From the IMG/VR virus record IMGVR_UViG_3300036841_000445, positions 1-45,624 of that record: a stretch of DNA of 45,624 bases; one strand, given 5' to 3'. The position numbers were made by a program, and so were the translations under genes. The notes below the pieces were generated by a model. The model did no database searches, was not told the DNA's origin, and saw nothing but the letters and a program-made list of their open reading frames with translations. Below are positions 1 through 45,624 of the stretch, piece by piece (within the stretch, counting starts at the first letter, position 1; each line of letters opens with the position of its first letter). Source of the stretch: a virus.

Positions 1-127
1 GCCTGCTCGCTGCTGTACGCGGCAGCGTGGCGAGCGGCGCGGGCGATGGGCTACCGGCAGCTGATCACGTACACGCTGGCGTCCGAGCCTGGCACATCCC
101 TGCGCGCCGCTGGCTGGCGCGTGGTGG
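1..127. repeat. Terminal overlap, left copy (127 bp)
   Basis: Identical base for base to 45498-45624. The XF1762-family gene reads through the join without a break, so the two ends are the same locus. A length of exactly 127 is a common maximum k-mer in short-read assemblers, so this is best read as the overlap of a circular or circularly permuted genome and not as a biological terminal repeat. Unique length is then 45,497 bp. Confidence 0.95.
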
Positions 128-237
128 CTCAGGTCGAGCGCCGGAGCTGGGACCGGCCTGGCCGGCCGCGCGTGGACCTACATCCGCTCCAGGAGCGATT
201 GCGCTGGGAGCCCGAGAACCACGAGGAGGCGATGTAG
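1..237 (+). CDS. XF1762 family protein, 3' part (gene crosses the contig join)
   Basis: Frame 1 is open from base 1 and stops at 235-237. It continues the frame that starts at 45282, and joined across the ends it gives 150 residues. The joined protein resembles the XF1762 family of small phage proteins. It carries GRPVACH, a VTRLCTDGSRNACS stretch, then YAAAWRAARAMGYRQL and SEPGTSLRAAGW, which looks like an acetyltransferase (GNAT)-like fold with the substrate-side SLRAAGW turn. Biochemical function is not established. The next gene starts 3 bases after the stop, as is usual in this tightly packed genome. The part shown here lacks its own start because the contig was opened inside the gene. 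Confidence 0.85.
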   Translation, partial: ACSLLYAAAWRAARAMGYRQLITYTLASEPGTSLRAAGWRVVAQVERRSWDRPGRPRVDLHPLQERLRWEPENHEEAM

Positions 238-240
238 TCG

Positions 241-786
241 GTGCCTGCGGTCCCACTCAACGATGCAGCCCAGTCCCAGCCCACGCGCAGCGAGCAGAGC
301 CTGGAACGCTGGTGCACCGCCGCCTGGCAGACCCACGAAGCGCGGCGCCGGCACGGCTCCTACACCGAGACCTGGCCCACAGCCGCGGACTTCCGCGAGC
401 ACTGGCCGCTCCTCGCCGGCGACCTCATCGAAGCCGCCTGGTGGTGGGACGGCGCCGCCACCTCGAGCGACGTGACACGCATCCCCGCCGAGCTGCTCGA
501 CCCCCCGCGGCGGCCGCGCGAGGACTGGCGGCGGCTGTACGCCGCCGAACTGGCCGCCAGCGCCGGTGTGCATCTGGACCTCGTCGGCGAGAACCCGGTC
601 GCGGCTATCGCGAAGCGGGCCCGCATGACGCCGGCCGAGACGGACGTCTTCCGGCTCTGGGCCGCGGGGGACTCACTGGGAACGATCGCCCGGACCATCG
701 GCCGCCACCGGAGCACGGTCACGACGCTGCTGGCGCGGGCCCGCTTCCGGCTCCGCGACCTGGACAGGCGCCGGAGCGTGGCGTGA
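241..786 (+). CDS. Sigma-70 region 4-like HTH protein
   Basis: 181 residues with a GTG start three bases after the upstream stop. The last third (about residues 128-175) reads MTPAETDVFRLWAAGD, then SLGTIARTIGRHRSTVTTLL. That is the pattern of a region-4 helix-turn-helix of sigma-70/ECF type: a TxxE..V..L.A.G start and a recognition helix with RHRSTV. The first two thirds are acidic and Trp-rich (EAAWWWDG) and I recognise no domain there. No region 2 is present in this protein, but a region-2-like protein lies two genes downstream at 1284. A role as a late-gene transcription activator, or as half of a split sigma factor, is inference. A generic DNA-binding phage protein is the alternative. 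It overlaps the next gene by 4 bases (GTGA). Confidence 0.6.
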   Translation: MPAVPLNDAAQSQPTRSEQSLERWCTAAWQTHEARRRHGSYTETWPTAADFREHWPLLAGDLIEAAWWWDGAATSSDVTRIPAELLDPPRRPREDWRRLYAAELAASAGVHLDLVGENPVAAIAKRARMTPAETDVFRLWAAGDSLGTIARTIGRHRSTVTTLLARARFRLRDLDRRRSVA

Positions 787-1238
787 TCCCGACGCCGAAG
801 ACGATCGGCAGGCTGTACACGAACAAGCGCCGCCTCATCGAGGCGGACCTCGACATCTTTCTGTTCGAGCGTCTGACGTCGCTCGGCTGGACCGTGTATC
901 GACAGAAGACCGTCCACGGATTCAAGGGCATGGCCAACTGGCGCGCGCCATCGAAGTGCATTCGCACCGCCGATCTGCATGCCTGGTGCAGCGGCGAGCA
1001 CCTGCTCATCGAATCGAAGTGGCCTGCGCAGGCTGATGCTGCCCAGCTTCCCGAGCGCGGCCTCGGACAGATTCTGCTGGCGGCCCGGCTGTTCGAGCTG
1101 CAAAACGGCTTCCCTGCGCATCCGGTGCTGGCGGCGCCGTACTGGTCGTGGCATCGCCAGCTACCCGAGGTGTGCGAGAGGGCAGGCGTCATCCCCTGGC
1201 CCATCGACGTCATCTCCGGCTATGAGCCGCCCGCCTGA
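783..1238 (+). CDS. Small PD-(D/E)XK-like nuclease candidate
   Basis: 151 residues, starting at a GTG that overlaps the previous stop (GTGA), so the pair is probably translationally coupled. The same frame is open further upstream, but that part is a shadow of the preceding gene. The middle holds RTADLHAWCSGEHLLIESKW, an Asp on one strand followed about 12 residues later by E-S-K. This matches the D...(D/E)xK signature of the restriction-endonuclease-like fold. Trp-rich surroundings and the short length fit small phage nucleases or resolvases. No second metal ligand is certain. The function (DNA processing near packaging) is inferred from motif and position only. Confidence 0.6.
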   Translation: MIPTPKTIGRLYTNKRRLIEADLDIFLFERLTSLGWTVYRQKTVHGFKGMANWRAPSKCIRTADLHAWCSGEHLLIESKWPAQADAAQLPERGLGQILLAARLFELQNGFPAHPVLAAPYWSWHRQLPEVCERAGVIPWPIDVISGYEPPA

Positions 1239-1244
1239 GCCTAA

Positions 1245-1267
1245 CTTGTCGGCTACCCGCCGACAAG
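1245..1267. promoter_or_regulatory. Perfect 9-bp inverted repeat before the sigma-like gene
   Basis: CTTGTCGGC (1245-1253), loop TACCC, GCCGACAAG (1259-1267). It lies six bases after the stop of the nuclease-like gene and 16 bases before the ATG at 1284. No T-run follows, so it is either a factor-dependent stop or attenuator, or a protein-binding operator for the sigma-like gene. Confidence 0.5.
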
Positions 1268-1283
1268 GTAGGCAAGAGAACCC

Positions 1284-1574
1284 ATGCAGCCCAGCCACGC
1301 CGACTTTGCTACCGATCTCCAGCCCCGGCTCCTCCAGCATGCCCGCCTCGAGTTGAGACGCCTCGGCTTGCCGGTCGATCGGGATGAGGACATCGTGCAG
1401 GATGCTTGGGCGCGGTGGCTGCGCACCCAACCATCCAGGGTCGAGCAGTGGCTCAGGATCTGCGTGCACGGTCTGGCCATCGACGCGGCGCGGCGCCGCT
1501 CCGGCTCGACCCGCAGCGGCCACGTCGACCCACTCGACATGGAGCCGGTCGGCCTCGAAGTCCTGGGCGCCTGA
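1284..1574 (+). CDS. Sigma-70 region 2-like small protein
   Basis: 96 residues, ATG start. The protein reads like region 2 of an ECF sigma factor: an N-terminal helix with LLQHARLELRRLGLPVD, then RDEDIVQDAWARWLR (the acidic D-x-EDIVQ-x-x-W helix that binds core polymerase), then QWLRICVHGLAIDAARRR (region 2.3/2.4-like, with a basic end). It stops before any linker or region 4. The only region-4-like protein nearby is at 241-786. A hairpin lies just upstream. A split sigma, comparable in principle to the two-part SigO/RsoA system of Bacillus subtilis, is my inference. It could also be a degraded sigma or an anti-host-polymerase factor. Confidence 0.6.
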   Translation: MQPSHADFATDLQPRLLQHARLELRRLGLPVDRDEDIVQDAWARWLRTQPSRVEQWLRICVHGLAIDAARRRSGSTRSGHVDPLDMEPVGLEVLGA

Positions 1575-1607
1575 TGGCGTCCGCCACACCTCGCCAGGGA
1601 GGCGCCC

Positions 1608-2672
1608 ATGGCCGCACGTGACGTCCTCGTGCCCACCCCGATCAGGCCGCGGCATGGCCGCGACCAGGTGGTCGAGGATCTGCGTCATCTGGCCGCCGGC
1701 CGGCTGGACCGCCGGAGCCTGCTGAGCGGCTACCGGCGCCAGCTGAACCCGGTCGAGGTCCGGACCACATCGCTGGTGCCGGATGGTGTCCGGCTCACGC
1801 CGAGCGAGCTGGTGCGCGACCCGGCGGCCTTCAGCGAGCACGGCGCCGTCTGGGACCCGCTCGACCGCGTCTGGCGCGATACCAACTTCGGCATGCAGCG
1901 CCGCGCCTGGCGCGAGATCCGCCGGACGAACAACACGCGGCTCAACGTCGGCCGCGACCAGGTCCAGCGCATCGGTACCTTTGGCGACGTCGGGACCGGC
2001 ACGGGTCTGAGCGGCGCGGTCGGCAACGCCACGGCGACCTCGGCCACGACGATGACCGACTCCGGCGCGACGTTCCCGACCGGCACGAGCTCGGCCGGAA
2101 ACGCCGGCCTGCAGGGCCACGTGGTCTATGTCGGGAAGAACAACTCCGGCACCGGCTCGACCGTGCTCGGCATCATCCTGTCGAACACAGGCACCGTGCT
2201 CACTGTCGACCAGTGGTACGCGCTGCCGCTGACCGGCGCCGCCGGCACCACGCCGAACGCGACCGGGAACTACTTCATCGTCCCGGGCTCCAGCTGGCCC
2301 TGGTGGGTCGCCCTCAGCACCTCGAGCGCGGCGGCGGCGGCCACCGACGTCACCCGCAGCTCGGACGGGCTGTGGGGCGACGGCACGTCGGGCGGCACCG
2401 CGACGGAGCAGACCGCCAACGGCCTGGCCCGCGCCTACTGCGGCCAGGGCGGCGGCACGGCGCCGACGATCCCCGGCGCCGGCCAGATCCAGTTCAACCA
2501 CACCTGGACGTACAGCGGTTCCTCGCTGGTGACGATCCCCAAGGTGGTGCTGTTCAACAGCCTCGCCGCGGCGGGCACCATCCCGATGCTGGAGACGCTG
2601 CTGAACGCCCAGGCAACCGTGAACACCAACGGCGACACCATCCAGCTCGCCGGCTGGCAGATCACCTTCTGA
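1608..2672 (+). CDS. Putative virion (fibre/appendage) protein
   Basis: 354 residues with an ATG at 1608. The first 130 residues are charged and helical. From about residue 133 the composition changes to Gly, Thr, Ser and Asn rich beta-type sequence (GTGTGLSGAVGNATATSATT, SGTGSTVLGIILSNTG), typical of phage fibres and appendages. I cannot assign a family. It opens a block of five similarly beta-rich genes that ends with a BppU-like protein, which supports an adhesion or baseplate role. This block lies upstream of the terminase, an unusual place. The stop shares one base with the next ATG (TGATG), so translation is probably coupled. Confidence 0.55.
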   Translation: MAARDVLVPTPIRPRHGRDQVVEDLRHLAAGRLDRRSLLSGYRRQLNPVEVRTTSLVPDGVRLTPSELVRDPAAFSEHGAVWDPLDRVWRDTNFGMQRRAWREIRRTNNTRLNVGRDQVQRIGTFGDVGTGTGLSGAVGNATATSATTMTDSGATFPTGTSSAGNAGLQGHVVYVGKNNSGTGSTVLGIILSNTGTVLTVDQWYALPLTGAAGTTPNATGNYFIVPGSSWPWWVALSTSSAAAAATDVTRSSDGLWGDGTSGGTATEQTANGLARAYCGQGGGTAPTIPGAGQIQFNHTWTYSGSSLVTIPKVVLFNSLAAAGTIPMLETLLNAQATVNTNGDTIQLAGWQITF

Positions 2673-3346
2673 TGGCCATCACGCTCCTCAACTACGTCCG
2701 GCCGGACCCGACGCGGGCCCGCGACCTGGTCGTCGCCCGGCCCGCCGACGTGGCGCGCGAGGCGCGCCTGTGGCGCGAGTTCCGCGAGCTGAACCTGCGC
2801 CCGATCCGTGGCGCCTCGCTGCAGACCTGGCAGGAGATGGTCGCGGTCGCCCAGGCGGACGGCTCCGCGCTGGCCAACTCGACCACCGAGACCTCGCTGC
2901 TGCCTGCGCAGGCCATCTTCACGGTGCCCGCCAACTACCTGCAGGTCGGCAAGACTCTGCGCTGGTGGGCGGCTGGCCGGGTAGGCACGACTGGCACGCC
3001 GACGCTGCGCCTGAAGATCTGCTATTCGGCGACCGCCAATACCAATGTGCTGGCGGACACCACCGCGCTGACGACCGGGTCGGGCATGACGAACAACACC
3101 TGGTGGTGGCGCGGGCACATGACCGTGCGCGCCGGCGGCTCGTCGGGCAACGTCATGGCCATCTCCGAGCTGGTGGGCATCACCGGGGCCACCGCTCAGG
3201 TCCAGGTCCCGGCCAGCGCGCCGGCGGTCAGCTCCAACGCCGACTTCACCGCGGCGCAGCCGTTCCAGCTCACCGCGCTCTGGGGCACGGCCAACGCCTC
3301 CAACACGATCACCCTGCACGAGTTCTACCTGGAGGCCCTGAACTGA
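2672..3346 (+). CDS. Putative virion protein, beta-rich
   Basis: 224 residues. The ATG at 2672 shares its A with the upstream TGA; the frame is open further upstream but that part is a shadow. A short helical head (RARDLVVARPADVAREARLW) is followed by a beta-rich body with WWAAGRVGTTGTPTLRLKI and NNTWWWRGHMTVRAGGSSG. This Trp-bearing strand pattern is what one sees in jelly-roll receptor-binding or capsid-decoration domains. I have no family name for it. The neighbours on both sides are structural in character. A receptor-binding or tail-appendage role is likely but not shown. Confidence 0.5.
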   Translation: MAITLLNYVRPDPTRARDLVVARPADVAREARLWREFRELNLRPIRGASLQTWQEMVAVAQADGSALANSTTETSLLPAQAIFTVPANYLQVGKTLRWWAAGRVGTTGTPTLRLKICYSATANTNVLADTTALTTGSGMTNNTWWWRGHMTVRAGGSSGNVMAISELVGITGATAQVQVPASAPAVSSNADFTAAQPFQLTALWGTANASNTITLHEFYLEALN

Positions 3347-3348
3347 CC

Positions 3349-3540
3349 ATGCTGCGAGCCATCCTCGACCAGGTCGCGCACGGTCGCATCGTCTGCGTCG
3401 GCCCCGTGCCACAGCTCCCCGACCTCGTCAGCGTCAGCATCACGGACGGCGACCGGATAGTCGAGGAAGCGTCCTGCTCGGATACCGACGCGGCGCTGCG
3501 GCACGTCATCCGCAAGCTCGCGCAGCAGCTGGAGGGCTGA
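3349..3540 (+). CDS. Small hypothetical protein
   Basis: 63 residues, ATG at 3349, two bases after the previous stop. The sequence begins MLRAILDQVAHGRIVCVGP and alternates short strands and acidic turns, ending in a helix (AALRHVIRKLAQQLEG). I do not recognise a family. Its in-operon position between two virion-type genes suggests a minor structural or assembly role. Good third-position G/C and tight spacing support it as a real gene. Confidence 0.5.
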   Translation: MLRAILDQVAHGRIVCVGPVPQLPDLVSVSITDGDRIVEEASCSDTDAALRHVIRKLAQQLEG

Positions 3541-3542
3541 GC

Positions 3543-3899
3543 ATGGCCACCGCCACCGTCTTCGCCGCTCAGGCGCGCGCCGCCGGCACCTACACCTCGC
3601 CCAGCGTCACCTACTCGGGCGGCACCGCCGACTGCGTGCTGACCGTCAACGACGCGAACTGGACGACGACCACGCCGACCTCCCTGGTCGTGACCATCGA
3701 GATCCAGGAGTCGTTCGACGCCTTCGCCACCTTCGACGTGGTCGAGACGGCCACCCTGACCCCACCCGCGGTGGGCAAGGACGGGAAGGCAGGCGCCGGC
3801 TTCCAGACGCAGAACGACGGCCGCGGCTCGCGCCAGGTGAGGGCCCGGATGACCCTGAACCAGTCCTGGTCGGGAGGCATCACCGGCACGGTGAACTGA
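3543..3899 (+). CDS. Putative small virion protein
   Basis: 118 residues, ATG two bases after the previous stop. Beta-rich and Thr/Val/Ala rich throughout (NDANWTTTTPTSLVVTIEIQ, TATLTPPAVGKDGKAGAG), with no hydrophobic segment or cysteine cluster. An alternating polar/apolar pattern suggests a single beta-sandwich. It sits in the appendage module between a small unknown and the repeat-bearing fibre. The family is not recognised, and a structural role is inferred from composition and context. Confidence 0.5.
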   Translation: MATATVFAAQARAAGTYTSPSVTYSGGTADCVLTVNDANWTTTTPTSLVVTIEIQESFDAFATFDVVETATLTPPAVGKDGKAGAGFQTQNDGRGSRQVRARMTLNQSWSGGITGTVN

Positions 3900-3905
3900 C
3901 CGGCG

Positions 3906-5375
3906 ATGGCCGTCTACTCGACCCTCGGCCAGGTCGCGGGCGGCTCCTCGTTCACGATCACCTGGACGGGCACCCAGCCCACGCCGGGCAACAAGATCGC
4001 GGTCGTGTTCTGGGGCTCGAACAGCTCCAACAACACGGTCAGCAGCGTCAAGGACAACGCGTCCAGCCAGAACACGTTCACGGCCGGCCCGTCGGTCGCG
4101 CCGACTTCCGACCGCCAGCTCTGGCTGTACTGGCTGGACCTGCCCACCAACGCGAGCTGGTCGGGCAACTACACCGTCACCGTCACCTTCTCAGCGTCCA
4201 TCACAGACGCGTCCGGCGGCGGCGGCGCCTACCCGAACGTCACCAGCGGCGCGCCGGCGGCCACCAACACGAACAGCGGGACCGGCACCAGCGCCACCTC
4301 GGGCGCCGCCAACCCAGGAGCCAGCAGCTCGCTCTACGTCGCTGGCGTCAACGACAACACCGGCTCCAACCCGGCCAGCCCGTTCTCGGTCGCCGCGCCC
4401 TTCACGATGGAGGTGACGCAGCTCAACGGGTCGAGCCAGCAGGCCGGCTCGATGGCCGATGCGGTCGGCAGCAGCGGGTCGCAGAACGCGACCTTCACCA
4501 TCCAGAACAACACCTGGTCGGCGCTGATCGCCGCCTGGACCCTGATCCCGGTCAGTACGGCCGGCTCCGCGATTGGCGGAGGCTGGCATCCCGGCGCCGG
4601 TCCGACGAACGCTCGGTTCTTTCAGCGCCTCGGTGCATTCCCCTCGAGCGCCGGGCCGGTCGTCAACGTGGTCACGGCTTCCGACACGCTCTCGGCGCTG
4701 AGCGATGCGGCGACGCGGGCCCTCCAGGCGAGCCTGCGCACGGCGTCGGACACGCTGGGCTCGCTGACGGACGTGGCAACCCGAGCCGCGCAGTCGGCCG
4801 CCCGGACGGCCGCGGACAGCCTGTCGGCGCTGAGCGACGCCGCCACCCGGGCTGCGCAGGCCAGCTCGAGGACCGCGACCGACAGCCTGGCGGCCCTGAC
4901 GGACGCCGCGACTCGCACCATCCAGGCGAAGACCAGGAGCGCGACCGACTCGCTCTCCGCGCTGAGCGACAGCGCCAGCCGCAGTCTGCAGAGCTTCGCT
5001 CGGACCGCGACCGAGACCATCGCCGCCCTGACCGACCAGGCATTCAAGGCTGGCAGCCATATCACCGTCACGGCGTCGGACACGTTGTCCAGCCTGAGCG
5101 AGACGGTCGCCAGGGCGGCGCAGCAGTCGGCGCGCACCAGCTCGGACGTGCTGTCGGCGCTGGTCGAAGTGGCAACCCGCGCCGCGCAGCATCCGGTGCG
5201 GACCGCCGTTCAGGGTCTCAGCGCCCTGGTCGATGCGGCGGTGACGCTCGGCGCCAACACTGGCCAGCCGGTGCCCGGCCCGACGCGCCTCCTTGGCGCC
5301 GCCGTCAACCGGCTGCTCGGCATGGTCGGCCGCAACCGCATGAGCGGAGGCGGCCCCAACCAGCTCGGAGGGTAG
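3906..5375 (+). CDS. Tail-fibre-like protein with nine 22-residue repeats
   Basis: 489 residues. Residues about 1-215 form a beta-rich domain with Ser/Asn/Thr-rich loops (WLYWLDLPTNASWSGNYTVT, WSALIAAWTLIPV), typical of a fibre head. A short Gly/Pro hinge follows. From about residue 255 to 452 there are nine tandem copies of a 22-residue unit of the form xRTAxDSLSALSDAATRAAQAS. A 22-residue period equals two hendecads and favours a right-handed or straight helical bundle, so a trimeric coiled-coil shaft is likely (inference). A short C-terminal basic tail ends the protein. The next gene is BppU-like, which supports a receptor-binding or baseplate role. Confidence 0.65.
   Translation: MAVYSTLGQVAGGSSFTITWTGTQPTPGNKIAVVFWGSNSSNNTVSSVKDNASSQNTFTAGPSVAPTSDRQLWLYWLDLPTNASWSGNYTVTVTFSASITDASGGGGAYPNVTSGAPAATNTNSGTGTSATSGAANPGASSSLYVAGVNDNTGSNPASPFSVAAPFTMEVTQLNGSSQQAGSMADAVGSSGSQNATFTIQNNTWSALIAAWTLIPVSTAGSAIGGGWHPGAGPTNARFFQRLGAFPSSAGPVVNVVTASDTLSALSDAATRALQASLRTASDTLGSLTDVATRAAQSAARTAADSLSALSDAATRAAQASSRTATDSLAALTDAATRTIQAKTRSATDSLSALSDSASRSLQSFARTATETIAALTDQAFKAGSHITVTASDTLSSLSETVARAAQQSARTSSDVLSALVEVATRAAQHPVRTAVQGLSALVDAAVTLGANTGQPVPGPTRLLGAAVNRLLGMVGRNRMSGGGPNQLGG
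4668..5262 (+). repeat. Nine 66-bp coding repeats (22-residue units)
   Basis: The unit pattern is TASDTLSALSDAATRALQAS with conservative changes at a few positions. DNA copies differ mostly at third bases and at the S/T, A/S and L/I positions, which points to old duplication under protein-level selection and not to recent expansion. Copies 6, 8 and 9 are the most diverged. Confidence 0.8.
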
Positions 5376-5714
5376 ATGCCCACCTACACGGTGAAGCGCG
5401 GCGACACGGCTCCGGTCGTGACCGACACGCTGGAGGACGCTGCCTTCGCGCCAGTCAACCTGACCGGCGCCAGCGTGAAGTTCCACATGACCACATGGGA
5501 CCGCAGCACGGTGGTCGTCAACGCCTCGGCCACCGGCCCCAACGGCGGAGCGCTCGACAGCACCGGCCAGGTGCAGTACGCCTGGGCCAGCGGCGACGTG
5601 GCGGCGGCCGGCGTCTACAAAGCGGAGTGGGAGGTCACGTTCGCTGGGGGGAAGATCGAGACCTGGCCGAACGAGGGCTACGCTACCGTGAACATCCCGG
5701 CAGATCTGGCGTGA
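5376..5714 (+). CDS. BppU-like baseplate upper protein (N-terminal-type domain)
   Basis: 112 residues, ATG directly after the fibre stop. It begins YTVKRGDTAPVVTDTL, continues NLTGASVKFHMTTWD and VQYAWASGDVAAAGVYKAEW, and ends with WPNEGYATVNIP. This order (RGDT...L-D, LTGASVKF, Y-W-x-x-G-D-x-x-x-x-G-x-Y-x-A-E-x-x-V) is the familiar pattern of the BppU/DUF2479-type N-terminal domain that anchors receptor-binding proteins on siphophage baseplates. It ends with TGATG, overlapping the HNH gene start. The role is assigned by family resemblance. Confidence 0.7.
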   Translation: MPTYTVKRGDTAPVVTDTLEDAAFAPVNLTGASVKFHMTTWDRSTVVVNASATGPNGGALDSTGQVQYAWASGDVAAAGVYKAEWEVTFAGGKIETWPNEGYATVNIPADLA

Positions 5715-6127
5715 TGGGGCTGCGTCCCTGTCTCGACTGCGGCACGCCGACTACAGAAAGTCGGTGCAAGGTGCATCAGACCCAGCTCGAGCAGCGCCGA
5801 GGCAGCGGCACGGCGCGGGGGTACGACAGCCGGTGGCAGCGCTTGGTCGCCAAGGTGAAGGCGCAGCACGTTGCGGAGCAGGGATGGGTATGCCCCGGAT
5901 GGCAGGTGCCTGCCCACCCGGCCAGGGACCTGACCGGTGACCACCTGGTCCCCCTGTCGGCAGGTGGCGAGTCCGTCGAATCGAACGTCGTCATCCTCTG
6001 CAGGAGCTGCAACGCGAGGAAGGGAGGCGACCGGGGGGGAGGGATGGCATCGCGAACGTCGACCGCCGCACGGACCCCAACCCAGGCTTCTCGCACCGTG
6101 TGCAGAAATGGGTTGCTGGTGGTCTGA
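5714..6127 (+). CDS. HNH endonuclease, packaging-associated
   Basis: 137 residues, ATG at 5714 overlapping the upstream TGA. Residues about 8-20 hold CLDCGTPTTESRC, a zinc-binding pair. The HNH core is LTGDHLVPLSAGGESVESN followed by VVILCRSCNARKG, giving D-H, the central N, and the final C-x2-C...N. In many HK97-type phages an HNH protein sits beside the terminase and takes part in DNA cleavage during packaging. The position immediately upstream of TerS/TerL fits that role here. The C-terminal 30 residues are Ser/Thr/Arg-rich and look unstructured. Confidence 0.85.
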   Translation: MGLRPCLDCGTPTTESRCKVHQTQLEQRRGSGTARGYDSRWQRLVAKVKAQHVAEQGWVCPGWQVPAHPARDLTGDHLVPLSAGGESVESNVVILCRSCNARKGGDRGGGMASRTSTAARTPTQASRTVCRNGLLVV

Positions 6128-6131
6128 GAAT

Positions 6132-6551
6132 ATGCAAGGTCGACCGCCGAAGCCGGGTGCCCGCCAGCCCAACCGTGGCCTGGGCGGCCCGGCGCTGGTC
6201 AAGCTGCCGCGCTCCGGACGTCAGGGAGAGCCGCTGGACTGGCCACTCGACCGGCCGTCGAGGCGTGAGCTGACGCTGTGGGCGCGGCTCTGGCAGACGC
6301 CCCAGGCCGTCGCGTGGGAGGCGCTTGACTGGGCCGATGTGGTCGCGCGATACGCCCGCGTACTCACGGTGGCCGAGAAGCGCGGCGCGCCCTACCCGGC
6401 GATGGCCGAGGCGCGCCAGCTGGAGGACCGACTCGGCCTGACGCCGATGTCGCTGCTCAAGCTGCGCTGGTCGATCGTGGATGAGCAGGCCAGTGAGCAG
6501 CCGGAGCTGGAGGTCGTCGACATCCGCGAACGGCTGAGAGCGGTGGAGTAG
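6132..6551 (+). CDS. terS: Terminase small subunit
   Basis: 139 residues, ATG at 6132. It starts with a basic GRPPKPGARQPNRG tail and then has LDWPLDRPSRRELTLWARLW, TPQAVAWEALDWADVVARYA and a C-terminal LEDRLGLTPMSLLKLRW helix. This is the arrangement seen in P27-like/actinophage small terminases, which bind DNA and hand it to the large subunit. Position between HNH and TerL agrees. The start is favoured over the frame's upstream part, which shadows the HNH gene. Confidence 0.8.
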   Translation: MQGRPPKPGARQPNRGLGGPALVKLPRSGRQGEPLDWPLDRPSRRELTLWARLWQTPQAVAWEALDWADVVARYARVLTVAEKRGAPYPAMAEARQLEDRLGLTPMSLLKLRWSIVDEQASEQPELEVVDIRERLRAVE

Positions 6552-6554
6552 AGC

Positions 6555-6641
6555 GTGCCCGTCTGGACATCGAAGAAGGCGCCGGCGCCGCTTGCCGCCG
6601 CGTCCGGCGGGGTCGCCGCCGGACAAGAAGTGACGATCTGA
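6555..6641 (+). CDS. Possible 28-residue peptide between TerS and TerL
   Basis: GTG start four bases after the TerS stop; 28 codons ending with a TGA that overlaps the TerL ATG (TGATG). The product begins VPVWTSKKAPAPLAAA and is Ala/Gly rich with no family. The tidy overlap at its end suggests it may exist to couple TerL translation to TerS. It may equally be an untranslated spacer. Confidence 0.3.
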   Translation: MPVWTSKKAPAPLAAASGGVAAGQEVTI

Positions 6642-8224
6642 TGCCCTGGCGCGGTCCGCGGGAAGCCGGCGAGTACCCGACGCTCGGGTACGAGGTCGGC
6701 CTGTGGATCGAGGCCAACTGCGTGATCCCGGACAGCATCCGCCAGGGCGAGCCGTACCGGCTCACCGACGAGATGTGGCGCTTCCTGCTGCGGTACTACC
6801 GTCTGCACCCGGCCGCCGAGGTGCTGGAGGGGCGTCCGTCGGCGCCGTTCTTCTACCGCGGCGGCCTGCTGATGCGGCCGCAGAAGTGGGGCAAGGGTCC
6901 GTTCGCGGCAGCGCTCTGCCTAGCCGAGGCGTTCGGCCCGGTCCGCTTCGACGGCTGGAGCGGCACCGGTGAGCCAGTCGGCTGCCCCCAGCCCACGCCC
7001 TGGGTGCAGATCGTCGCCACGTCGGAGGAGCAGACGGACAACACGTGGTTGGCGGTGTACGAGATGGCCACTCGCGGCGCGGTCGCGGACATCCCCGCTG
7101 TCGACATCGGCATCCTCGACATCAACCTGCCGTCGGGCGGGAAGATCGAGCCGCGCAGCGCCAGCGGCCGGGCCCGCCTCGGCGCCCGCCTGACCTTCGC
7201 CGTCTTCGACGAGTCGCACCTGATGACGGAGTCGAACGGCGGCGTGCTGCTGGCGACGACGATGAAGCGGAACCTGGCCGGCATGGGCGGCCGGTGGCTG
7301 GAGACCACCAATGCCTACGACCCGTCGGAGCGCTCGATCGCGCAGCGGACCCACGAGAGCCCGGCGCAGGACGTCCTCGTCGATTACCGGCCGCCGCCGC
7401 GCCGGCCCGACCTGACGGACGACGCGGACGCGCTGGAGATGCTCGGCTTCGTCTACGGCGACGCCTGGTGGGTCGACAAGGAGCGGATCTTGGCGGACGC
7501 CCGCGACCCGGCGACATGTCCGACGACGGCCGAGGCGATGCGCTTCTTCTTCAACCGTCTGGAGGTCGGCATCCATGACGCGGTGGACGCAAGCCGGTGG
7601 GACGCCGCGGCCCAGCCCAGCCAGCTCGAGCGAGGCGAACCGATCGCCCTCGGCTTCGACGGCAGCCGCTCGCGCGACTGCACGTCGCTGGTCGCCAGCC
7701 GCCTCGTTGACGGTAGGTGGTTCCATCTACGTACCTGGGACCCGGCGGACTTCGACGACCATCTAGTGCCACGCACCGAAGTGGACCAGGTCGTCACCGC
7801 GGCGTTCGAGGCGTATGACGTCCGCTACTTGTTCATGGACCCGTACCGCTGGCAGGAGTACGCGGATGTGTGGGCCGGCAGGTGGCCGAAGCGTGTGCTC
7901 GAGTTCCCGACCAACGTGGATCGCCGGATGGACAACGCCGTGACGCGCTTCCTGACGGCCTTCGCCGGCGACTTCACGCACGACGGCAACGAGACGCTCG
8001 CCGCGCATGCCAAGGCGGCCGCGCTCGCCAAGGGCGCGCGCAGGGCGCCGCGGCCAGAGGAGGACCCGAGCATCGTCCGCTACTACCTGAAGGTCATCAA
8101 GAAGCGCGAGACCGTGCACATCGACGCCTTCGTCGCTGGCCTGCTCGCCGAACTGGCCCGCGGCCAGGCGGTCGAGGACGGTGGCCTCAACCCCGCACCG
8201 GAGCCGCTACTGGCATGGGGCTGA
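6641..8224 (+). CDS. terL: Terminase large subunit
   Basis: 527 residues, full length for the family. The ATPase half carries a degenerate Walker A, RPQKWGKG (about residue 79), and a Walker B, LTFAVFDES (about 184-192). The nuclease half shows the RNase H-like acidic positions: ALGFDGSRSRD (about 336), LFMDPYRWQEY (about 397) and VHIDAFVAGLL near the C-terminus. The protein pumps DNA into the prohead through the portal and makes the terminal cut. The RPQKWGKG variant is common in terminases of actinobacterial phages. It overlaps the portal gene by 10 bases. Confidence 0.95.
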   Translation: MPWRGPREAGEYPTLGYEVGLWIEANCVIPDSIRQGEPYRLTDEMWRFLLRYYRLHPAAEVLEGRPSAPFFYRGGLLMRPQKWGKGPFAAALCLAEAFGPVRFDGWSGTGEPVGCPQPTPWVQIVATSEEQTDNTWLAVYEMATRGAVADIPAVDIGILDINLPSGGKIEPRSASGRARLGARLTFAVFDESHLMTESNGGVLLATTMKRNLAGMGGRWLETTNAYDPSERSIAQRTHESPAQDVLVDYRPPPRRPDLTDDADALEMLGFVYGDAWWVDKERILADARDPATCPTTAEAMRFFFNRLEVGIHDAVDASRWDAAAQPSQLERGEPIALGFDGSRSRDCTSLVASRLVDGRWFHLRTWDPADFDDHLVPRTEVDQVVTAAFEAYDVRYLFMDPYRWQEYADVWAGRWPKRVLEFPTNVDRRMDNAVTRFLTAFAGDFTHDGNETLAAHAKAAALAKGARRAPRPEEDPSIVRYYLKVIKKRETVHIDAFVAGLLAELARGQAVEDGGLNPAPEPLLAWG

Positions 8225-9657
8225 GGCAGAACATCGCGCGCTGGCTGAGCCCGCAGAGCGAGGCCGAGCGCGACCTGGCGCTCACGCTGAGCCAGTACGT
8301 CGCCCAGTACTTCACCTACGGCGGGATGCAGTACCCGCTTGGCGGCTACGGCATCCAGGGCGACAAGGAGACGATCAACCGCGACTTCGCGGGCTACGTC
8401 CAGGGCGCCTACAAGACCAACGGCGTCGTCTTCGCCTGCCTGCTGGCGCGGCTGATGCTCTTCAGCCAGGCGCGCTTCATGTTCCGCCAGCTCCGCAAAG
8501 GGCGGCCGGGCGACCTCTTCTCGCTACCGCAGCTCGACCTGCTCGCGCACCCCTGGACGAACGCCACGACGGCGGACCTCCTGGCGCGCGCGATCCAGGA
8601 CGCGGACCTGGCCGGCAACTTTTTCGCCGCCCGCATCCGCAAGCAGATCCGTCGCCTGCGGCCGGACTGGACCTTCATCGTGATGGGTTCGTCGACCGCC
8701 TCGTACGACGGCCTCGCCGAGGAGATCGCCTCCGGTGACGCCATCGACGTCGACGTCATCGGCTACGGATACCAGGCCGGCGGGCCGGGATCCGGCGCGC
8801 CGGTGCATACGTTCCTGCCGCACGAGGTGGCGCACTTCGCGCCCATTCCGGACCCGCTGGCGATGTTCCGCGGCATGTCCTGGCTGGAGCCGATCGTCCG
8901 CGAGATCCAAGCGGACACGGCGGCCAACGTGCACAAGCTGAAGTTCTTCGAGAACGCGGCGACCTCGAACACCGTGTGGACGTTCGATCCCAGCGTGGGC
9001 AAGGAAGCGTTCGAGCAGTGGGTCGCGAAGTACCGCGAGGGACACGAGGGCGTGCTCAACGCGTACAAGTCGATCTTCATTGGCGGAGGCGCGACGCCCA
9101 AGGTGATCGGCGCCGACTTCCAGCAGATGGACTTCAAGGTCGTGCAGGGCGCCGGGGAGACGCGCATCTGCGCGGACGCCGGCGTGCCGCCGGTCATCGT
9201 CGGTCTGTCGGAGGGCCTGGCGGCCGCGACCTACTCGAACTACGGCCAGGCGCGCCGGCACTTCGCGGCCTCGACGATGGCCTGGCTCTGGCAGAACATG
9301 GCCGGCTCGATGGCCACGCTCGTGCCGCCGCCGCCCATGTCAGAGCTCTGGTACGACACGAGTGGCATCCCCTTCGTGGCCGACGACGTCAAGGACGCCG
9401 CGGAGATCGGCCAGCTGGAGGCGGCGCAGATGGCGCAGCTCATCAATGCTGGATTCGAGCCGGACTCGGTGGTCGACGCGGTGACGTCGAACGACCGCAC
9501 GCGGCTCGTGCACTCGGGCCTCGTCTCAGTGCAGCTCCAGCCGCCCGGGACCGTTCTGCCGCCTGCTGGGCAGTTGCCGGCGCCCGCGCCGCCAGCGCTG
9601 CCACCGGCACCAGCAACCAACGGCAAGCCGAAGCCGGTCCCCGCCGGCGCCAAATAG
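8215..9657 (+). CDS. Portal protein, HK97 type
   Basis: 480 residues, ATG at 8215 inside the end of terL. Features of HK97-type portals: an N-terminal YVQGAYKTNGVVFACLLARL segment, a central DPLAMFRGMSWLEPIVREIQ (the DP...G.S.l.p..r.i pattern), NAATSNTVWTFDP, and ICADAGVPPVIVGLSEG then SNYGQARRHFAAST. The last 40 residues are Pro/Ala rich and unstructured. It forms the dodecameric DNA channel at the capsid vertex and docks the terminase and the neck. Order (TerL, portal, protease, MCP) is canonical. Confidence 0.95.
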   Translation: MGLRQNIARWLSPQSEAERDLALTLSQYVAQYFTYGGMQYPLGGYGIQGDKETINRDFAGYVQGAYKTNGVVFACLLARLMLFSQARFMFRQLRKGRPGDLFSLPQLDLLAHPWTNATTADLLARAIQDADLAGNFFAARIRKQIRRLRPDWTFIVMGSSTASYDGLAEEIASGDAIDVDVIGYGYQAGGPGSGAPVHTFLPHEVAHFAPIPDPLAMFRGMSWLEPIVREIQADTAANVHKLKFFENAATSNTVWTFDPSVGKEAFEQWVAKYREGHEGVLNAYKSIFIGGGATPKVIGADFQQMDFKVVQGAGETRICADAGVPPVIVGLSEGLAAATYSNYGQARRHFAASTMAWLWQNMAGSMATLVPPPPMSELWYDTSGIPFVADDVKDAAEIGQLEAAQMAQLINAGFEPDSVVDAVTSNDRTRLVHSGLVSVQLQPPGTVLPPAGQLPAPAPPALPPAPATNGKPKPVPAGAK

Positions 9658-16855: not shown

Positions 16856-17033
16856 GTGCCCAGCTGTCAGCGCCGACGTAGACGAGGGCGTTCGCGGCAA
16901 GGCAGAACAGTCCCCACACGAAGAGCATCTGCGGATTGCGCAGGACGGTCGATCCGGCCAGCGAAGCCACGAGCATCAACTGAGCCGGCACGGCCACGAA
17001 TAGGCCGATCGCCAGTAGCAGCGGTCCTTTCAT
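16815..17033 (-). CDS. Leftward small membrane protein inside the tail operon
   Basis: 72 residues with ATG at 17033, opposite to all neighbouring genes. Two strong hydrophobic segments: LLLAIGLFVAVPAQLMLVAS and MLFVWGLFCLAANALVYVGA, separated by a short polar turn (GSTVLRNPQ), with a basic tail (ALRRWPLPSRS). Third positions are mostly G/C. It fills a 239-base gap between tail tube and chaperone genes, which otherwise has no rightward gene. No clear ribosome site or promoter is visible and a longer start at 17098 is possible. A moron-type, lysogen-expressed membrane protein (for example superinfection exclusion) is inference. Confidence 0.45.
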   Translation of the reverse strand: MKGPLLLAIGLFVAVPAQLMLVASLAGSTVLRNPQMLFVWGLFCLAANALVYVGADSWALRRWPLPSRSPGS

Positions 17034-17094
17034 CACACCAGTAGAACGTGGCGGCCCGGGGCCGGGATCGCCTTCCAGGACAGGAGTCCCATGC

Positions 17095-45285: not shown

Positions 45286-45624
45286 CGCTTTCGCCGCTGA
45301 CGCTCCGCGAGGCCGCCGCATTCGTACAGCAGCACCACCGCCACAGCCAGGCGCCGCAGGGTGGGCTGTTCGCAATCGGCGCAGCATCGGCCGGCGAGGT
45401 CGTCGGCGTCGTGATCGTCGGACGACCGGTCGCTTGCCACATGTCTGACGGCTGGACGGCGGAGGTCACCCGGCTCTGTACGGATGGCAGTCGCAATGCC
45501 TGCTCGCTGCTGTACGCGGCAGCGTGGCGAGCGGCGCGGGCGATGGGCTACCGGCAGCTGATCACGTACACGCTGGCGTCCGAGCCTGGCACATCCCTGC
45601 GCGCCGCTGGCTGGCGCGTGGTGG
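45282..45624 (+). CDS. XF1762 family protein, 5' part (continues at base 128)
   Basis: ATG at 45282 overlapping the previous TGA. MTLSPLTLREAAAFVQQHHR, then GGLFAIGAASAGEVVGVVIV, GRPVACHMSDGWTAEVTRLC and TDGSRNACSLLYAAAWRAAR. This is the classic head of the XF1762 family, and the frame continues past the contig end to the stop at 235-237. Probable acetyltransferase-like fold; role unknown. Confidence 0.85.
   Translation, partial: MTLSPLTLREAAAFVQQHHRHSQAPQGGLFAIGAASAGEVVGVVIVGRPVACHMSDGWTAEVTRLCTDGSRNACSLLYAAAWRAARAMGYRQLITYTLASEPGTSLRAAGWRVV
45498..45624. repeat. Terminal overlap, right copy (127 bp)
   Basis: Exact copy of 1-127. It shows that the contig is complete and closes on itself. 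Confidence 0.95.

Follow-up and report, generated by a model that had tools for sequence, protein, structure and literature searches.

Introduction

Sigma factors are usually single chains in which a linker joins the part that reads the -10 element to the part that reads the -35 element. To our knowledge, the SigO-RsoA pair is the one clear bacterial exception. This two-subunit sigma factor of Bacillus subtilis (PMC8103513) is made of proteins with masses of 22.54 and 9.00 kDa (PMC10141391), both of which are needed, together (PMC10028694). The title of a 2016 paper on how SigO and RsoA interact points to region 2.3.

Among phages, T4 offers a looser parallel. At T4 late promoters, the sigma-2-like gp55 sits on the beta-prime coiled-coil while gp33 sits on the beta flap and replaces sigma-4 (PMC2988020). 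Protein gp33 has no discernible sigma sequence similarity and no sequence-specific DNA binding, and activation needs the sliding clamp (PMC2988020). Phage SPO1 also has two adjacent small genes, gp34 (annotated as a sigma factor, 197 aa) and gp33 (annotated as a sigma accessory, 101 aa), which we considered as a split precedent and rejected: gp34 has region 2 plus a weak region 4, and gp33 belongs to another family (PF25742). In a brief search of part of the literature, we found no described case of a phage sigma factor split between sigma-2 and sigma-4. The split design itself is already known from one Bacillus pair, and a phage-borne case would be new as far as we searched.

Here we describe a pair of small genes of a soil phage that may encode such a split factor. 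We put the probability at roughly 60% that their two proteins act as one, making up a two-subunit sigma factor of ECF-like type.

Genome and gene neighborhood

The window, by which we mean the whole stretch of DNA that was analyzed, is the entire virus record IMGVR_UViG_3300036841_000445 (45,624 bases). Because its first 127 bases recur exactly at its end as a terminal direct repeat (1-127 = 45498-45624), the record is probably a complete genome of ~45.5 kb (45,497 bp) that is circular or circularly permuted. Judged from its gene content, the phage looks like a temperate siphovirus, since it encodes an integrase, RecE/RecT, terminase, portal, and major head and major tail proteins. Its terminase has relatives in actinobacterial phages and shares 66% identity with one on a contig of Parafrankia soli, which makes an actinobacterial host likely. 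The features that concern us are as follows.

241-786, + strand: sigma-4-like protein, 181 aa, 20.4 kDa (Pfam HTH_38, AlphaFold model, VIA-align, homologs in the related loci L020 and L030)
568-774, + strand: region-4-like domain, residues ~110-178 of the 181-aa protein (structure match range 107-181)
783-1238, + strand: nuclease-like protein, 151 aa, between the pair (possible PD-(D/E)xK-type motif, D...LLIESKW, by sequence reading)
1245-1267, + strand: 9-bp dyad or hairpin, CTTGTCGGC...GCCGACAAG, in the 45-nt gap (1239-1283) before the region-2 gene
1284-1574, + strand: sigma region 2-only protein, 96 aa, 10.9 kDa (Pfam Sigma70_r2, PDB profile matches, predicted fold)
1608-5714, + strand: run of about six genes after the pair, perhaps virion-related (ORF calls)
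5714-6127, + strand: HNH endonuclease-like gene (tblastn to many relatives, in which it is kept before TerS)
6132-6551, + strand: terminase small subunit, TerS (Pfam Terminase_7, E 1.1e-7)
6641-8224, + strand: terminase large subunit, TerL (phrog_19179, E 4e-68), the marker used for finding relatives

The portal gene follows TerL, and on the other side the pair is flanked by a Mom-like DNA modification gene (phrog_1384) that spans the joined record ends. The nuclease-like gene overlaps the sigma-4-like gene by four bases (GTGA), and its product has no convincing match in Pfam or PHROG. No PHROG assignment was obtained among those genes of the 1608-5714 run that were tested. The PHROG family matching 6132-6551, phrog_226, carries the label 'minor tail protein'; we nonetheless assign this gene as TerS because of its Pfam Terminase_7 match and its position beside TerL. 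Homologs of TerS start near residue 66 of the longer ORF.

An initial annotation of this DNA had described the pair as two small reading frames lying two genes apart at the head of the virion operon, and had called the design rare. Both reading frames exist, but a single gene lies between them. The pair is indeed upstream of HNH-TerS-TerL, although the head of the operon is ill-defined, with about six genes intervening. The design does appear to be rare, and given SigO-RsoA it is not unprecedented.

The phage pair resembles SigO-RsoA (YvrI-YvrHa) in that sigma-4 and sigma-2 are carried on separate proteins with the sigma-4 gene first. The masses are 22.5/9.0 kDa for SigO/RsoA versus 20.4/10.9 kDa in the window and 19.7 kDa (sigma-4-like) and 8.95 kDa (region 2) in L020, a likeness of order and size. 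In contrast to the phage pair, SigO-RsoA is chromosomal and controls oxalate decarboxylase and its own operon, whereas the phage genes precede the terminase genes of a high-GC phage and, in the window, have the nuclease-like gene between the two halves. Unlike gp33 of T4, the second protein of the window is HTH/sigma-4-like. One-piece ECF-like phage sigmas (Rhizobium phage 16-3 p086, Nitrincola phage 1M3-16 orf1, and others) have a similar region 2 and region 4, and differ from the pair in that a single chain of about 166-191 aa carries the two regions.

The region-2 protein

The 96-residue protein matches Pfam Sigma70_r2 (PF04542) with an E of 1.4e-5 and 25.2 bits, above the curated cut-off of 24 bits (residues 33-73 on profile positions 22-69 of 71), and it is the sole Sigma70_r2 match in the 45.6-kb record. 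A search of NCBIfam returned sigma families only, all under their cut-offs. When a two-row profile of this protein and its L020 homolog was compared with the PDB, 20 sequences matched at E up to 1, all of them named sigma factors, the best being region 2 of the ECF sigma SigR (E 7e-5). The GC content by codon position (0.76/0.48/0.85) is typical of real genes in this genome.

The predicted model contains the three-helix region-2 fold, with a pLDDT of ~83 over the three-helix core, and is closest to ECF sigma region-2 domains, with the top rows from both Foldseek and VIA-align being mostly sigma region 2. In VIA-align, the first 32 rows are sigma factors (best Z 9.5, rmsd 5.0, 75 residues); Z values of helical bundles are easily inflated, and the weight lies on sigma factors filling the top of the list. 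T4 gp55 (7d7c) also appears in this list (Z 6.7, rmsd 2.6, 68 aligned). The window (DRDEDIVQDAW) and L020 (EQAEDLVQDAF) both retain the core-binding segment and also a 2.3/2.4-like W...RR segment, and the two proteins align with the one-piece phage sigmas. The chain leaves no room for a region 4. Instead, an acidic 23-residue C-terminal tail (pI 4.3) begins where the sigma2-sigma4 linker would. We are highly confident that this protein carries sigma region 2.

The sigma-4-like protein

The C-terminal part of the 181-residue protein is less distinctive by sequence. An HTH_38 match is found near the C-terminus (Pfam E 4.5e-7), and the match to Sigma70_r4_2 is weak (12.5 bits, under the curated cut-off of 25.7). 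HTH_38, GerE, and NarL/GerE- and LuxR-like HTHs match this protein as well as or better than sigma region 4 does, and the best match of the family profile in an actinobacterial genome is LuxR-type. The AlphaFold model has block mean pLDDT values of 82-93 over residues 121-170, and the top rows in VIA-align for the C-terminal domain are sigma-4 domains that bind the -35 element, with LuxR-type HTHs ranking below them. The match to 3vfz (Z 6.2, rmsd 1.8, 61 aligned) is suggestive, the Z being middling and HTH folds common. No region 2 was found in the protein. Its N-terminal ~110 residues are family-specific and conserved in L020, and were modeled with low confidence.

It is quite likely that the product of 241-786 carries a region-4-like domain. 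The initial annotation had read this protein as a region-4-like HTH lacking region 2, and the 96-residue protein as region 2 lacking region 4. The second reading holds, with profile searches placing 1284-1574 inside the sigma region 2 family. The first is supported by fold and by the lack of region 2, but the sequence itself indicates only a generic HTH. Modeled singly, the 96-residue protein falls nearest to ECF region 2 and the C-terminus of its partner nearest to sigma-4 domains.

Conservation of the pair

Using TerL as a query, we gathered 70 related loci, and 37 TerL-sharing records were checked for Sigma70_r2. Homologs of the 181-residue protein occur in two of the 70 loci, L020 (38% identity, E 5e-22) and L030 (30%, E 1e-9), and in these two loci, as in the window, the gene lies upstream of HNH-TerS-TerL. 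In L020, a diverged relative, a 78-aa region-2-only gene (4346-4582) sits directly after the sigma-4-like homolog and 1.2 kb before TerS. Its product matches Sigma70_r2 (E 4.4e-9, 36.5 bits, again above the cut-off) and the 'RNA polymerase sigma factor' family phrog_1740 (E 3.9e-9, profile positions 66-125). Sigma70_r2 matches were found in 2 of the 37 records, namely the window and the L020 record (G009), each time beside a sigma-4-like gene. Window and L020 proteins are reciprocal best matches, both for the sigma-4-like protein (E 1e-25 and 5e-26) and for region 2 (E 0.014 and 0.006, in first place among 577 and 512 ORFs), which speaks against a chance finding and supports the split pair of separate genes proposed in the initial annotation. 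This conservation in L020 is the strongest evidence for the split pair.

The L030 homolog matches the 'sigma factor' family phrog_3512 (E 0.001) and, under the cut-off, Sigma70_r4_2 (E 0.0012, ~19-20 bits). Its region 4 weakly matches phrog_1740 at positions 169-216, the same profile that is matched by region 2 of L020. No region-2 gene was detectable in the L030 record, which may be incomplete. Within L030 7045-7789, the N-terminal part of the sigma-4-like homolog may sit in an overlapping upstream frame (7045-7362).

Most TerL relatives are without the pair, and it is therefore not essential to this type of phage. The known region-2 members are two, from the window and L020. In tblastn searches of 50,697 phage records, neither protein found relatives at E 0.1, and the region 2 of the window found none even at E 10. 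Scans of IMG/VR with either protein and with small alignments returned the L020 and L030 contigs only, apart from a match in L135 that proved to be unrelated and due to chance. No family member was found in 84,980 prokaryote genomes searched by pattern or in 393 same-class genomes searched by profile; these searches gave one generic HTH match. HTH-like matches in L026, L116, L022, and L007 were rejected as LuxR-type, unrelated or chance. The frame in L026 (2353-2718) is a LuxR/GerE-type HTH ~1.5 kb before TerS, roughly at the place of the pair, and is perhaps an alternative late regulator. When the DNA of the window was compared with that of L020 at the dinucleotide level, no noncoding word of note was common to both.

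Proposed mechanism and alternatives

We infer that the two proteins form a complex, bind polymerase, recognize promoters, and act on late genes. Joint action is suggested because of the conserved linkage and the known SigO-RsoA pair, and the polymerase contacts that we propose follow from established sigma anatomy and the same precedent. The 96-residue protein would supply region 2, docking on the beta-prime coiled-coil of the host RNA polymerase via its DEDIVQDAW segment (AEDLVQDAF in L020), and would read and melt the -10 element. The 181-residue protein would supply region 4, sitting on the beta flap and reading the -35 element. The ~110 N-terminal residues of this larger chain probably serve to hold its region-2 partner, in place of the covalent linker. 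Together, the pair would turn the host polymerase toward promoters of the phage, most likely ones that serve the adjacent packaging and virion block.

Phages keep ArpU/RinA- or Q-like late regulators at the place occupied by the 181-aa gene. The two proteins might act apart, the larger as an ordinary HTH late activator and the smaller as an unrelated small polymerase-binding factor, which might compete with host sigma for the beta-prime coiled-coil. This agrees with the generic sequence of the HTH, with its place closely upstream of the terminase genes of three phages, and with its occurrence in L030 without a detectable region-2 partner. However, both region-2 finds among the 37 records adjoin the HTH homolog, directly after it in L020, and in the fold comparison the HTH comes out with sigma-4 domains, ahead of LuxR ones. 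We regard separate action as unlikely, though it deserves to be taken seriously.

A further alternative accepts the two-part sigma but gives it another purpose, for example the control of middle genes, lysogeny, or the Mom-like modification gene instead of the virion operon. Late-gene control is suggested by the position of the pair before the packaging and virion genes, and virion genes as targets seem to us to have slightly less than an even chance. No sigma-70-type promoter was found in 1-9000. Ahead of ten gapped genes, no shared bipartite motif exceeded what shuffled controls gave, so that the late-gene promoter motif envisaged in the initial annotation did not appear. These results are compatible with another purpose, as are the Mom-like gene and the several genes without an assigned role that flank the pair. 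The location of the pair upstream of HNH-TerS-TerL in both the window and L020 speaks against it, and we think it rather improbable.

Region 2 might also be a decoy with no role in initiation, one that titrates a host anti-sigma and so frees an ECF sigma of the host, in the way that PhyR acts on NepR. Such mimicry is known for PhyR (PMC8103513), and the L020 region 2 matches Pfam PhyR_sigma2 as well (E 6e-4, under its cut-off). Sigma70_r2 fits that protein much better, though, and the core-binding segment is retained, whereas the promoter and core contacts of PhyR are described as degenerated (PMC8103513). Mimicry would also leave the linked sigma-4-like gene without a role, and we consider it very unlikely. 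Finally, although one-piece ECF-like sigmas occur in other phages, it is hardly credible that the pair is the remains of one such gene broken by a frameshift or insertion: in the two phages region 4 comes before region 2, an order opposite to that of a sigma gene and thus not that of one broken in place, coding-type base composition is kept in both genes, and the region-4 protein has an additional long N-terminal part that is conserved.

Returning to the two-subunit sigma, its halves could come from separate transcripts or be produced at different times, given the hairpin between them in the window, such that virion genes would be turned on only with both. The full proposal, an AND gate on late transcription by a phage-borne ECF-like factor that is a second natural sigma-2/sigma-4 split, independent of SigO-RsoA, is speculative and on balance improbable. 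A phage-borne case, with both halves kept in two genomes that have diverged, would mean that the split arose or spread in viruses. A split sigma provides a natural AND gate and could be a source of small orthogonal parts for hosts of high GC content, and phage genes that encode a lone region 2 or a lone HTH merit a check for partners.

Additional sequence features

The hairpin before the region-2 gene occurs as a single copy in the window, and the RNA fold of 1228-1290 has an energy of -25.1 kcal/mol (z -3.6). It possibly masks a GGUAGG upstream of the region-2 start codon, and may serve as a terminator, an operator, or a translational control. There is no such gap in L020, where the sigma-4-like and region-2 reading frames overlap. 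Elsewhere, 239 bp at 16856-17094 are without a called gene inside the otherwise packed virion operon. The gene at 3906-5375 encodes a probable virion protein of 489 aa with tandem 66-bp (22-aa) repeats, TASDTLSALSDAATRA-like, at 4672-5200.
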